Shown here piece after piece: positions 23,532 through 62,192 of a DNA stretch of 64,000 nucleotides (position 1 is its first letter; each line of letters starts with the position of its first letter). The notes under the pieces were generated by a model, which made no database searches, was not told the origin of the DNA, and saw only the letters and a program-made list of their open reading frames with translations. The stretch is from Nitrospirota bacterium (GTDB lineage: Bacteria; Nitrospirota; Thermodesulfovibrionia; Thermodesulfovibrionales; Dissulfurispiraceae): positions 1 to 64,000 of the forward strand of contig JBFMHE010000016.1 of the NCBI GenBank assembly GCA_040752355.1, read 5' to 3'. A program made the translations under genes and the position numbers.

Positions 23532-23804
23532 GGAAAAGGGGCGGAGGCGAGGCATTTGGAGCGGCATGGGCAGCCCGAGCGAAGCCCCGTCCCAAAAAGA
23601 CGTTGTCTTTTTGGGGGCCCCATCGAAATGCAGAGGGCTCCCGGAAAGTCGTAGACTTTTCGGGAATTCCGGAAGCGGGTCGGTACGACTCGATTCCGAG
23701 CTGCCCCGCCTCGGAGGTCGCATCGACCGAAATCGGGGTCCCCGAAGATCGAAGATCTTGGGGGTGGCAGTTGAGCGAAAATGCCTCGCCTCCGCCCCTT
23801 CTCC
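23532..23804. repeat. Inverted-repeat element, copy 1
   Basis: The ends are a 26-base inverted repeat with one mismatch: 23532-23557 (GGAAAAGGGGCGGAGGCGAG...) and 23779-23804. Inside are three further short hairpins: CCAAAAAGAC/GTCTTTTTGG near 23592-23615, CCCGGAAAGTC/GACTTTTCGGG near 23640-23665, and CCCCGAAGATC/GATCTTGGGG near 23740-23765. The inner segment GGAGCGGCATGGGCAGCCCG next to the left end occurs again, inverted, in the element at 60823-60968. The right end touches the recJ stop codon. No ORF lies inside. It is the only content of the 23445-23803 gap. Confidence 0.85.
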
Positions 23805-25528
23805 TATTCCGAAAGCCGTATCGCTTTCAGGTGGAGCTGCAGGAACCTGCTCCCGTCCCACTCGTTGATCGCGGGGCTGAAGGCCGCATCGATGACCGAC
23901 CGCTCTTCGAGCTCGCCGAGCAGGCCCCCGAAATCGAACCCGATGCTGTCCACCCGCCGGCCGTTCTGCCGCAGCTTCATCTTGAGGTGGTTGTTCCCCA
24001 CCACCTTCGGCTGCACCACCTCGAGCCCCCGCGCGCCGAGGACAGGCTCGTCGTTGCCGTTGCCGAAGGGCTCGAGCCGGGAGAGCTCATCGACGAGCGA
24101 GGTACTGAGGTCGGAGAGATTCACCGCTGCGTCGAGCCGGAGCAGCGGAAGGAAGTCGTCCGGGGAGAGCTCCGCGCGCACCAGTTCCCCCATCATCGTC
24201 CTGAACCGTTCGATGTGCCCGGACGCCAGGGCGAGCCCCGCTGCCTGCTTATGGCCGCCGAACCGCGTCAGCAGCTCGCTGCAGCGGGAAAGTCCGTGGT
24301 GCATATCGAAAGCGGGGATGCTCCGCCCCGACCCCTTCGCAACGCCGTCCTCGACGGTAAGCACGAAGGCGGGACGGAAGAACCGCTCGGCGAGCTTCGC
24401 TGCCACAATGCCGACGACGCCCAGGTGCCATCCCGGCGAAGCCAGGACAAGCGCGTCGGGAATGCTGTCCATTGTGTTCAGCGATCCCAGCGCCTCCTGG
24501 TAGACCCCTTCTTCGATCTCCTGCCGCCGCAGATTGCAGCCGTTCAGCCACTCCGCCAGCTCCTCTGCCTCTGCCTCGTCCTCCGTTGTCAGGAGACGCA
24601 CCACATCGGTCGCATCGGCAATGCGGCCGGCGGCATTGAGACGCGGTATGAGCGCGAAGTGCAGGGAGGACATCCTGAAAGAGTCGGGGCGGATCCCCGC
24701 TGCGTCTCTCAACGCCCGTATCCCGGTCCGCTCGCCGCGCCTGATGAGCGTGATGCCCTCTTTGAGGATGACGCGATTGTCGTCGACGACCGGCACGACG
24801 TCGGCGCTCGTGCCCAGGGCGGCAAGGTCGAGAAAGCGATGTACGTCATCCATATTCCCGTCGAAGAGGGCGCGCGCCACCATGAAGGCGACCCCGGCGC
24901 CCGCAAGGGATACCGCTTCGGCGGGCGCACCGGGCAGCTTGGGATTGATCACCGCCGCCGCTTCGGGCAGCAGCGCTCCGCCGCCGTTATCCTCACCCGG
25001 TCTCAGCGGCTCGTGGTGGTCGGTGACGACTACCTCGATGCCGAGGGCGCGTGCAGAGGCGACCGCATCGAACGACGTGATCCCGCAGTCAACGGTGACG
25101 ATGAGCCGGGCGCCCACCTCCCGCGCCCGTGCAACGCCGGGTGCGCCGAACCCGTAGCCGTGATCAAGGCGGTGCGGAACGAAGTAATGGACATCGATGC
25201 CGAGCGACCGCAGCGCCTCGACCATGATCGCGGTTGCCGTAACGCCGTCGGCATCATAGTCGCCGTGGATCAGGACGCGTTCGCCCTGTCTCTTTGCAGC
25301 ACGGATCCGTTCGACCGCTTTCTGCATGCCGGGCAGCGCGAAAGGGTCGGAGAGCTTATCAAGGCGGGGATTGAGAAAGGCGTCGATCCGTTCGGAGGTC
25401 TTCAGCCCCCGGTTGATGAGCACCTGCGCACAGGTCGGCGACACCGCAGCGAGGCGCGCGATATAGCCGACGTATTCGGGATTGGTCTTGTTGAGCAGCC
25501 ACCTGCAGGCCGAGCCGTCACAGGCCAT
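23804..25528 (-). CDS. recJ: Single-strand-specific exonuclease RecJ
   Basis: RecJ degrades single-stranded DNA 5' to 3' in recombination and repair. The 574-residue protein has the DHH-family motifs: motif I LIHGDYDADGVTATA (about 88-102), IVTVDCGIT, the DHH box VVVTDHHEPLRPG (about 160-170), and the DHHA1 segment VLASPGWHLGVVGIVAAKLAERF with GSGRSIPAFDMH. Length and order are normal. The last codon runs into the right end of the inverted-repeat element. The gene is 83 bases downstream of secF. Confidence 0.95.
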   Translation of the reverse strand: MACDGSACRWLLNKTNPEYVGYIARLAAVSPTCAQVLINRGLKTSERIDAFLNPRLDKLSDPFALPGMQKAVERIRAAKRQGERVLIHGDYDADGVTATAIMVEALRSLGIDVHYFVPHRLDHGYGFGAPGVARAREVGARLIVTVDCGITSFDAVASARALGIEVVVTDHHEPLRPGEDNGGGALLPEAAAVINPKLPGAPAEAVSLAGAGVAFMVARALFDGNMDDVHRFLDLAALGTSADVVPVVDDNRVILKEGITLIRRGERTGIRALRDAAGIRPDSFRMSSLHFALIPRLNAAGRIADATDVVRLLTTEDEAEAEELAEWLNGCNLRRQEIEEGVYQEALGSLNTMDSIPDALVLASPGWHLGVVGIVAAKLAERFFRPAFVLTVEDGVAKGSGRSIPAFDMHHGLSRCSELLTRFGGHKQAAGLALASGHIERFRTMMGELVRAELSPDDFLPLLRLDAAVNLSDLSTSLVDELSRLEPFGNGNDEPVLGARGLEVVQPKVVGNNHLKMKLRQNGRRVDSIGFDFGGLLGELEERSVIDAAFSPAINEWDGSRFLQLHLKAIRLSE

Positions 25529-38147: not shown

Positions 38148-38189
38148 ACAATAGAAAAGGAGCAGATAGCTCTGCTCCTTTTCTATTGT
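38148..38189. terminator. Perfect 19-bp palindrome between atpC and the exporter operon
   Basis: The arms ACAATAGAAAAGGAGCAGA (38148-38166) and its exact complement (38171-38189) flank the loop TAGC. On the minus strand it comes 38 bases after atpC, as expected for a transcription end. No U-run follows; the A-rich and U-rich parts are within the stem. It is placed so that it would separate the ATP synthase operon from the lipoprotein-ABC operon downstream. Confidence 0.65.
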
Positions 38190-38227
38190 TCTCCTCTCGG
38201 GAATCGGCGGGATATCGGAACGCGCTG

Positions 38228-60617: not shown

Positions 60618-60649
60618 TGTTGCCCCCGTTTTATCTGCATAGTGAGCGG

Positions 60650-60699
60650 GGAAAGAGGCGGAGAATAGTACGCTCGCATACCATTCCCCGCCCCTCTCC
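60650..60699 (-). repeat. Long hairpin with G-U-compatible arms
   Basis: The arms 60650-60673 and 60676-60699 are 24 bases each with a two-base loop. In minus-strand RNA all 24 positions pair, seven of them approximately as G-U; on the plus strand those would be A-C mismatches. The strand bias suggests selection for an RNA structure from the minus strand, between MAT and the membrane methyltransferase gene, 33 bases before the latter start. Confidence 0.75.
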
Positions 60700-60822
60700 C
60701 AGGGCTCGGTGTATTAGCGATTCTGAATATATTTAAGTATACGATCTTGAAACATCGAATATAAGAGGGGGCATACACAAATCGTAGCGTAAAGGGAATG
60801 CAGCCAGGGCAAACGCACCGAA

Positions 60823-60968
60823 GAGGAAAGGGACCGAGGCGGGGCATTTGCGCTCATTCTCGACGGGCATCCGGCCCGTCTCCGAGGCGGGTCAGCCCGC
60901 TCCGCCTTCCATGGCTCCGCTCGGGCTGCCCATGCCGCTCCAAATGCTCCGCCTCGGTCCCTTTCCTC
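60823..60968. repeat. Inverted-repeat element, copy 2
   Basis: The ends are a 28-base inverted repeat with one mismatch: 60823-60850 (GAGGAAAGGGACCGAGGCGG...) and 60941-60968. Inside are a small hairpin GACGGGC/GCCCGTC (60862-60880) and the segment CGGGCTGCCCATGCCGCTCC (60921-60940), the reverse complement of part of copy 1. The element ends 21 bases after the MAT stop. The rest of 60700-60822 is AT-rich without a gene. Confidence 0.85.
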
Positions 60969-60989: not shown

Positions 60990-62192
60990 TCAGCAGACGG
61001 GGTATTTGCCTTTGCTGAGGTCGCTGCAGAGCCTGCTTATCCCTGCGAGCTCGCTCCGGAAGAGCTCCTCGGCTCTCTTCCTCACATCGCCGAGCGTCCT
61101 CCCTTTCTCGGGGAGTATCTGGGCCGCAGCGGTCTGGGGCCGGTCGATGGGCGTGCCGATCCTGCTCAGGAGGAGGACATACACCTCCCGAATGCCCTCG
61201 ATCTTTTCGTAGAGCTCCCGCGCGATCTTGTGGGCGAGGACGTTGTAGATCTTTCCGACATGGCTCACCGGGTTCTTTCCCGCCGCTGCCTCGGTGCCGA
61301 GGGGCCGGTTCAGGGAGATGAGCCCGTTCACGCGGTTCCCGCGGCCCACCTGGCCTGAATCCGCATCTTCCGCCGAGGTGCCGAGGAGGCTCAGATAGAC
61401 GCCGCCCAATCCCCTCCCTTGTTCGTCGAGGGTGTTGCAGTGCACGGTTATCCGCTTGAAGCCCTCCACGCCTGCAAGGAACCGTTTCATCTCGTCGAGG
61501 ATGATCTCCTTGCGGGCGAAGTAGTCGTCTTCCGATCGCAGGTAACCGGCGATGAGCGGCATCGCGACGGTGAGGTCGAGCGCCTTTCCCTCCCGCAGTC
61601 CCATCACCTTGATATCCTCTCCGGTGTCGGGATAGCGCGCCTTGAACCGCCTGGAGTTGAGGTACCGTTCGAGATCGAGCACCACCCGCTCCGCAGGGCT
61701 CAGCGGGTAGTAGCCGACCGCGGCAGAAGTGTCGTTGGCCGCCCTGACCTTGCCGCGGCGCTGGAAGATATCGGTCAGCTCTTCCGAGCCCGGGGCGAGG
61801 ACCACCCGGTACTTCATGTGGCGCACGGGATCGATGCGGGGCATGTTCCGCTTGAGCCACTGTTGAGCGGCGTCGATGGCGATGTCGGCGACAGGGATCT
61901 TCTTGCCGCCGACGCCGAAGGTCGCCCGGTCGCCGATAGTGAGCTCCATCGGCTTGACGATCCTGCCGCCGCCGAAGCGCTTCTCCGCCCTGCCTGCCGC
62001 AAGGAGCCCTTTATCGATATTATGATGGAGGACGGTGCCGAATTCTTTCAGGTAGGTCTGGGAGAGGGCGACCGAGATCGCGTCCATGAGGCAGTCGCAC
62101 ATATAATCGGGATGCCCCGTGCCTTTGCGCTCGACGATCTCGACCCGATGATCCGCGACCGCAGTTCCCCTGAAGGTCTCGATGCTGATCAT
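60990..62192 (-). CDS. mat: S-adenosylmethionine synthetase, archaeal type
   Basis: The 400-residue protein belongs to the archaeal MAT family, not the bacterial MetK family: GTGHPDYMCDCLMDAISVALS, GRAEKRFGGGRIVKPMEL, VLAPGSEELTDIFQR and NDTSAAVGYYPLSP are all of that type. It makes SAM from methionine and ATP. A few bacterial lineages carry it. The start has no ribosome binding site. Whether a metK also exists cannot be seen here. Confidence 0.93.
   Translation of the reverse strand: MISIETFRGTAVADHRVEIVERKGTGHPDYMCDCLMDAISVALSQTYLKEFGTVLHHNIDKGLLAAGRAEKRFGGGRIVKPMELTIGDRATFGVGGKKIPVADIAIDAAQQWLKRNMPRIDPVRHMKYRVVLAPGSEELTDIFQRRGKVRAANDTSAAVGYYPLSPAERVVLDLERYLNSRRFKARYPDTGEDIKVMGLREGKALDLTVAMPLIAGYLRSEDDYFARKEIILDEMKRFLAGVEGFKRITVHCNTLDEQGRGLGGVYLSLLGTSAEDADSGQVGRGNRVNGLISLNRPLGTEAAAGKNPVSHVGKIYNVLAHKIARELYEKIEGIREVYVLLLSRIGTPIDRPQTAAAQILPEKGRTLGDVRKRAEELFRSELAGISRLCSDLSKGKYPVC

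Follow-up and report, generated by a model that had tools for sequence, protein, structure and literature searches.

What are the two long inverted repeats that directly follow the recJ and MAT genes in this 64,000-nucleotide stretch of DNA (referred to below as the window)? The first-pass annotation had described them as two copies of one element and had offered three identities for it, namely, a nonautonomous mobile element, an RNA 3'-end stabilizer, or a terminator. Our analysis favors the first of these. We consider it probable (at roughly 60%) that both copies belong to a family of short, nonautonomous, MITE- or REPIN-like mobile elements on which an enzyme supplied in trans acts by reading the fold of one strand. 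The elements are dispersed, contain no gene, are gained or lost as a unit, and keep a one-strand fold despite free change in their stems.

Both inverted-repeat copies are present as annotated, with arms of 26 bp in copy 1 and 28 bp in copy 2 that contain one mismatch each. Copy 1 is a long variant of ca. 273 nt on the plus strand (positions 23532 to 23804), located between recJ (open reading frame [ORF] 23804-25528, minus strand) and panB. Its outermost stem, P1, pairs a 5' arm (23532 to 23557) with a 3' arm (23779 to 23804), whose final base coincides with that of the recJ stop codon. A first GAGCG (23559 to 23563), belonging to junction J1/2 (GAGCGG) and to the conserved core, is repeated directly at 23773 to 23777, and between the two lie CCTCGGAG (junction J2/3, 23709 to 23716) and the P3 hairpin (23716 to 23728). 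Copy 1 also has three extra hairpins; two are found within the P2 region (23590 to 23617 and 23640 to 23664) and one in the junction between GAGAAT and GAG (23740 to 23764). They resemble one another (25 to 28 nt, with a CCCC-purine-rich..GGGG stem and a 3-nt loop), and hairpins of this class are confined to the element in the stretches of the genome that we sampled. Copy 2, a short variant of 146 nt on the minus strand (60823 to 60968), lies 21 nt past the stop codon of MAT (ORF 60990-62192, minus strand). The MAT in the window is of the archaeal type, but the archaeal origin that this had suggested was rejected, because the relatives proved to be Nitrospirota. Copy 2 has the following parts. 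These are the P1 5' arm (60941 to 60968), GAGCGG (J1/2, 60935 to 60940), CCTCGGAG (J2/3, 60880 to 60887), the P3 hairpin (60863 to 60879), CGAGAATGAG (J3/1, 60853 to 60862), and the P1 3' arm (60823 to 60850). The inner segment common to the two copies was correctly annotated as lying in inverted orientation, although it is really ca. 52 nt long at 90% identity rather than 20 nt. As had also been noted, we found no plausible gene within the element.

Relative to dinucleotide shuffles, copy 1 folds with a z-score of -9.3 (-159.5 kcal/mol) and copy 2 with z-scores of -8.8 and -9.8, one for each strand. The first-pass annotation had proposed a whole-genome search for further copies and shared ends. 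A covariance model that we built from 15 short copies returned 58 matches in the window's own genome at an E value of ≤0.01, including both window copies (E = 3e-20 and 1e-25), and a BLAST search with copy 1 as the query returned 56; further copies and shared ends were thus both found. Given the fold z-scores, the model E values, and the 58 genomic matches, neither window copy is a product of chance. The window also contains a core-less relative on the minus strand, between MAT and the next gene (60649 to 60701), in which a P1-type stem is closed by a GAGCG loop; it forms a near-perfect 24-bp hairpin (z = -9.5) 120 nt from copy 2. A further covariance-model match at 38148-38190 proved to be an ordinary terminator-like hairpin and was set aside.

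Members of the family are gene free and mostly ca. 136 to 273 nt long. Their layout can be written as P1-[GT]A[GA]CGG-P2-CCTCGGAG-P3-CGAGAATGAG-P1', in which a long stem closes the structure and encloses two hairpins around junction letters that hardly vary; the aligned short copies read P1-GAGCGG-P2-CCTCGGAG-P3-CGAGAATGAGCG-P1'. The P1 arms (20 to 30 bp) constitute the terminal inverted repeats, and GAGCG pentamers flank the core as two direct repeats. In long variants, of which window copy 1 is an example, the additional hairpins occupy fixed places, and the one in the last junction recurs in a 228-bp version from a genome of another genus (G018). The terminal ends, on the other hand, vary between genomes and even between subfamilies within one genome. 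We also asked whether any large copy has a gene in its P2 loop; of 5 loci inspected, all lacking a nearby 5' arm, none was convincing.

The stems of the element vary freely in sequence while remaining paired. Among the 15 short copies from the window's own genome, the consensus fold comprises 43 pairs, 27 of which have changed on both sides; P1 alone shows double changes in 21 of its 23 pairs. Paired cells in this alignment amount to 97.3% (versus 82.6% after shuffling and 39 to 47% in slid controls), and the covariation score is 0.464 (0.187 when shuffled). When 134 copies from many taxa were compared, each position of P1, P2, and P3 showed all four Watson-Crick types, and P3, which played no part in the selection of these copies, is 95.5% canonical, compared to 48.7% in shuffled pairings. 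The mispairs in P1 are also asymmetric: under symmetric scoring we counted 232 G.T against 102 A.C (P = 9e-13, a value that is overstated, since the copies share ancestry). When copies between codirectional genes were separated by orientation, the G.T:A.C ratio was 42:19 in antisense copies and 11:1 in sense copies. Because G.T prevails over A.C whichever way the neighboring genes run, one fixed strand folds, and because the bias has the same sign in both orientations, the maintained fold is that of the element's own strand and not that of a host mRNA. Such a bias fits a single-stranded stage of the element itself, either as single-stranded DNA (ssDNA) or as its own RNA. Alternatively, it could stem from a transcript of the element that has a host function.

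Could the covariation have arisen in the absence of selection on the fold, by template switching between the arms during replication (palindrome correction)? In 5 of 9 type A copies, arm complementarity runs on beyond the common arm into the flanks, e.g., ATGAATAGG..CCTATTCAT (P ~ 0.006 versus cross-copy controls), and this is what palindrome correction might leave behind. At L339, L350, L358, and L365, all type A loci in the window's own genome, the extension covers 6 to 9 bp of copy-specific flank, which implies that the element-free site would be a near-perfect palindrome. Both insertion into palindromes and extension of a palindrome by template switching fit this complementarity. However, palindrome correction predicts no strand bias of the kind seen in the 232 and 102 mispairs, and it leaves both the invariant junction and the covariation of P3 unexplained. 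We regard it as quite improbable as the source of the paired changes.

Where the copies sit is informative, too. In three genomes, 44 of 62 copies lie between codirectional genes, 32 in antisense and 12 in sense orientation; these counts are approximate, as the neighboring genes were taken from a simple codon-usage caller. The usual distance is 10 to 30 nt from the stop codon on one side and from the next start codon on the other, and with this spacing between codirectional genes most copies are probably cotranscribed. The 71 nearest neighbors that we compared to Pfam have neither a function nor a transposase in common. Such placement, together with the cross-phylum conservation of the junction letters, the compensatory stem changes typical of RNA, and a tolerance of G.T pairs that would suit RNA, raises the question of whether the element is instead a multicopy structured RNA that serves the host (as a small RNA, an mRNA-embedded 3'-end stabilizer, or an operon processing site) and whose junction binds a protein or RNase. 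Nevertheless, orientation is mixed, with antisense copies outnumbering sense copies among the codirectional cases, and even in the antisense copies it is the element's own strand that shows the G.T bias, which means that selection does not act on read-through mRNA. Nor do the neighbors show any functional bias. A role of this kind seems to us unlikely, and as the primary nature of the element the proposed RNA 3'-end stabilizer is not supported, since in most codirectional copies the strand with the maintained fold is antisense to the flanking genes. The preference for gene ends that was to be checked is borne out as intercistronic placement but not as a 3'-end feature of fixed orientation; with respect to the gene before it, each window copy is turned the other way from its partner, and lying just after a stop codon therefore does not make them such a feature. 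Their position past the recJ and MAT stops is the usual intercistronic placement and not a 3'-end signal.

The same data bear on the suggestion that the copies are bidirectional transcription terminators or remnants of these. In the window, long GC-rich stems directly past stop codons do look the part. Yet we saw no T-tract after P1 in the flanks of the copies that we read, P1 is AT rich in AT-rich genomes (e.g., at L055), copies occur in both orientations inside likely operons, with ca. 20 nt to the codirectional gene on either side, and termination requires no conserved junction. As the primary nature of the family, termination is extremely unlikely. Insertion may nevertheless have a secondary effect on neighboring transcripts.

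At orthologous intergenic sites, gain or loss affects the element as a whole. Three such sites come from genus g13. At site A, genome G012 has ca. 178 bp of element separating a stop codon from a start codon, whereas G046 and G022 have none; with two congeners empty, no other site speaks as clearly for a gain. Site B is occupied in G012 and G046 but not in G022, and the near-repeat ATATYAAT is found at the junction. At site C (L280 on contig C17 of G012, L325 on C260 of G046, and L326 on C8 of G022), G022 is again empty, while G012 and G046 carry the element in opposite orientations, which may reflect either two separate insertions or an inversion by way of the arms. Genus g5 provides two more sites. 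At the first, G017 and G044 carry the element and G004 lacks it; at the second, full in G017, the same P1 is present in G004 but is closed by a single CGCTC and has no core, a state like that of the core-less hairpin at 60649 to 60701 in the window. Presence and absence alone are no proof of the direction of change. The clean empty sites are missing P1 as well as the core, and GAGCG hairpins that lack the core are rare (464 kb of G000 yielded one convincing case, and 400 kb of G012 none). These two observations argue that P1 belongs to the unit and that core-less hairpins look like deletions; given their rarity, loss of the core is likelier than its insertion into waiting hairpins. We had entertained the idea that the core inserts into preexisting hairpins, with GAGCG as the target duplication, and we rejected it on the same two grounds. 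The absence of copies at orthologous sites between congeners, and the lack of any exact-core copy in two congeners (G004 and G045), also count against a host-serving RNA.

If the element moves, does it do so as an ordinary MITE, with a DDE transposase acting on its terminal inverted repeats (TIRs) in double-stranded DNA, the core being a long-standing passenger and the strand that folds having no part in movement? The best case for this comes from G018, where copies are found within units bounded by imperfect 15-bp TIRs (CCCAAAATTGTCATT..AATGACAATTCYSGG) and flanked by AT-rich target duplications of exactly 5 bp (in 28 of 56 rows, with each unit entered on both strands, versus 5.5% for mismatched flanks). 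These units (L261-L290) come as versions of 186 to 187 bp with the core, 228 to 229 bp with an extra hairpin, and 50 to 70 bp with the core deleted. Along with the 58 dispersed copies and the clean empty orthologous sites, the G018 TIRs and duplications support the earlier suggestion of a nonautonomous mobile element. An outer TIR, TCTAACRRAATGA, is likewise common to the type B copies of the window's own genome, and a second, different carrier in G017 is a ca. 300-bp repeat that encloses the element and has outer inverted ends of its own (TGCTATTTTTC..GAAAAATAGCA; L173, 2837-3137, with ~85% copies on contigs C34, C29, and C6). Against a conventional MITE, it is the core and not the ends that genera and phyla have in common, and strand-specific pairing would not be expected of an element that exists only as duplex. 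A fixed-length target duplication is absent or weak elsewhere (G000, G012, G017, and a broad set). A full-length relative with a transposase and the same ends, which the first-pass annotation had envisaged, did not emerge; among the places listed, which take in some of those in G018, there were no facing pairs of the same ends 1 to 3 kb apart that enclosed a gene. The autonomous partner may be located in a different genome. Overall, a purely duplex DDE mechanism appears rather unlikely to us. We also rejected a RAYT (Y1) partner, given that copy number does not follow the occurrence of Y1 transposases; G022, a genome that is 98% complete, has 18 exact-core copies and no Y1_Tnp match.

How widely the junction occurs was assessed by scanning GTDB genomes for the pattern CCTCGGAG-N12..22-CGAGAATGAG. 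Among the pattern matches listed, at least 57 loci keep the pairing of both P1 and P3, and these come from at least the Nitrospirota, Latescibacterota, Gemmatimonadota, Desulfobacterota (including the isolate Desulfospira joergensenii), Parcubacteria, Auribacterota, and Omnitrophota. Cultured carriers include D. joergensenii DSM 10085 (copy in L120) and Desulfurivibrio sp. AMeS2 (L133). Unpaired matches in Agrobacterium, Verrucomicrobia, and Actinomycetota, mostly within genes, were dismissed as chance. Exact-core copies are present in 38 of 296 Nitrospirota genomes, and a reversed control pattern gave zero matches; nearly all of these carriers are Thermodesulfovibrionales, the order of the window, with a patchy distribution inside genera. 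Copy numbers in the 31 family genomes covered run from 0 to 32 exact-core copies. No phage or plasmid record matched the element. The single pattern match on a viral contig fell inside a gene, and we therefore rejected carriage by phages or plasmids. With the window, own-genome, and cross-phylum loci as queries, Rfam 15 yielded no family at the gathering threshold and only weak subthreshold matches at a permissive E value, and a literature search whose scope left out most subscription papers and preprints turned up no description of the element.

Conservation of a junction over such age and breadth exceeds the usual needs of a MITE. Bacterial interspersed palindromes such as REP, ERIC, Correia, and BOX are usually lineage specific. 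It is tempting, albeit somewhat doubtful, to go further and postulate an undescribed class of mobile elements present in many phyla, in which a folded, one-strand three-way junction directs transposition, the junction letters are the sole universal signal, and the ends are free to change.

The present family is short, noncoding, dispersed in multiple copies (58), and bounded by terminal inverted repeats, as is expected of MITEs. Both the Correia elements of Neisseria and the ERIC elements of enterobacteria are MITEs, and Correia elements have been reported to invert (PMC10969869). Like these, our elements are 100 to 270 bp long and gene-less, have long terminal inverted repeats, occur in tens of copies in intergenic positions near gene ends, and are variable in their interior; the opposite orientations at site C (G012 versus G046) raise the possibility of Correia-like inversion. 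Unlike Correia and ERIC, which occupy narrow taxa and are defined by primary sequence, they share a junction core across phyla with stems and ends left free, favor one strand for folding, and show a clear fixed-length target duplication in G018 only. REP and REPIN sequences are associated with RAYT (Y1) transposases, and they probably move through ssDNA. REPINs are interspersed palindromes whose single strands fold into long hairpins, with stem changes that come in pairs (PMC3116915). The present elements are similar in these respects, yet they differ in being three-way junctions and in that Y1 genes do not track the copies. The REP signature, GTAG or GTGG beside the hairpin, was found in 14 of 176 copies, which is no more than for control words. 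The attC sites of integrons are located at gene ends, conserve structure over sequence, and have one strand that folds. These three features recur here, but the attC boxes (RYYYAAC ... GTTRRRY, the R''/R' pair) were found in 0 of 176 copies, and the elements are dispersed singly rather than in cassette arrays. They resemble the structured RNAs of Rfam in that their three-way-junction fold covaries and its junction letters are invariant, although no Rfam family matches them at threshold.

How might such an element spread? We infer that an enzyme acting in trans reads the folded junction. It would move the element by recognizing a folded single strand (ssDNA, or RNA that is subsequently copied back), and the invariant junction letters would determine recognition or cleavage. 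In some genomes, such as G018, the unit travels within outer TIRs, or has gained them, and these are moved with 5-bp target duplications. The short intergenic gaps would represent tolerated insertion sites, and any influence on adjacent transcripts would be secondary. Loss of the core between the two GAGCG repeats would leave a simple hairpin.

The anatomy of the element can be recognized in distant phyla, its invariant letters suggest binding or cleavage of a specific kind, and the strand evidence speaks for a single-stranded stage. Together, these features make the spread of small gene-less repeats in bacteria testable through an enzyme that recognizes the junction. The covariance model can be used to annotate many intergenic repeats that currently lack annotation, several of them at assembly breaks. 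Near-identical type C copies are found at contig ends (L010, L013, and L022, on contigs C23, C13, and C20), where the family probably breaks the assembly.
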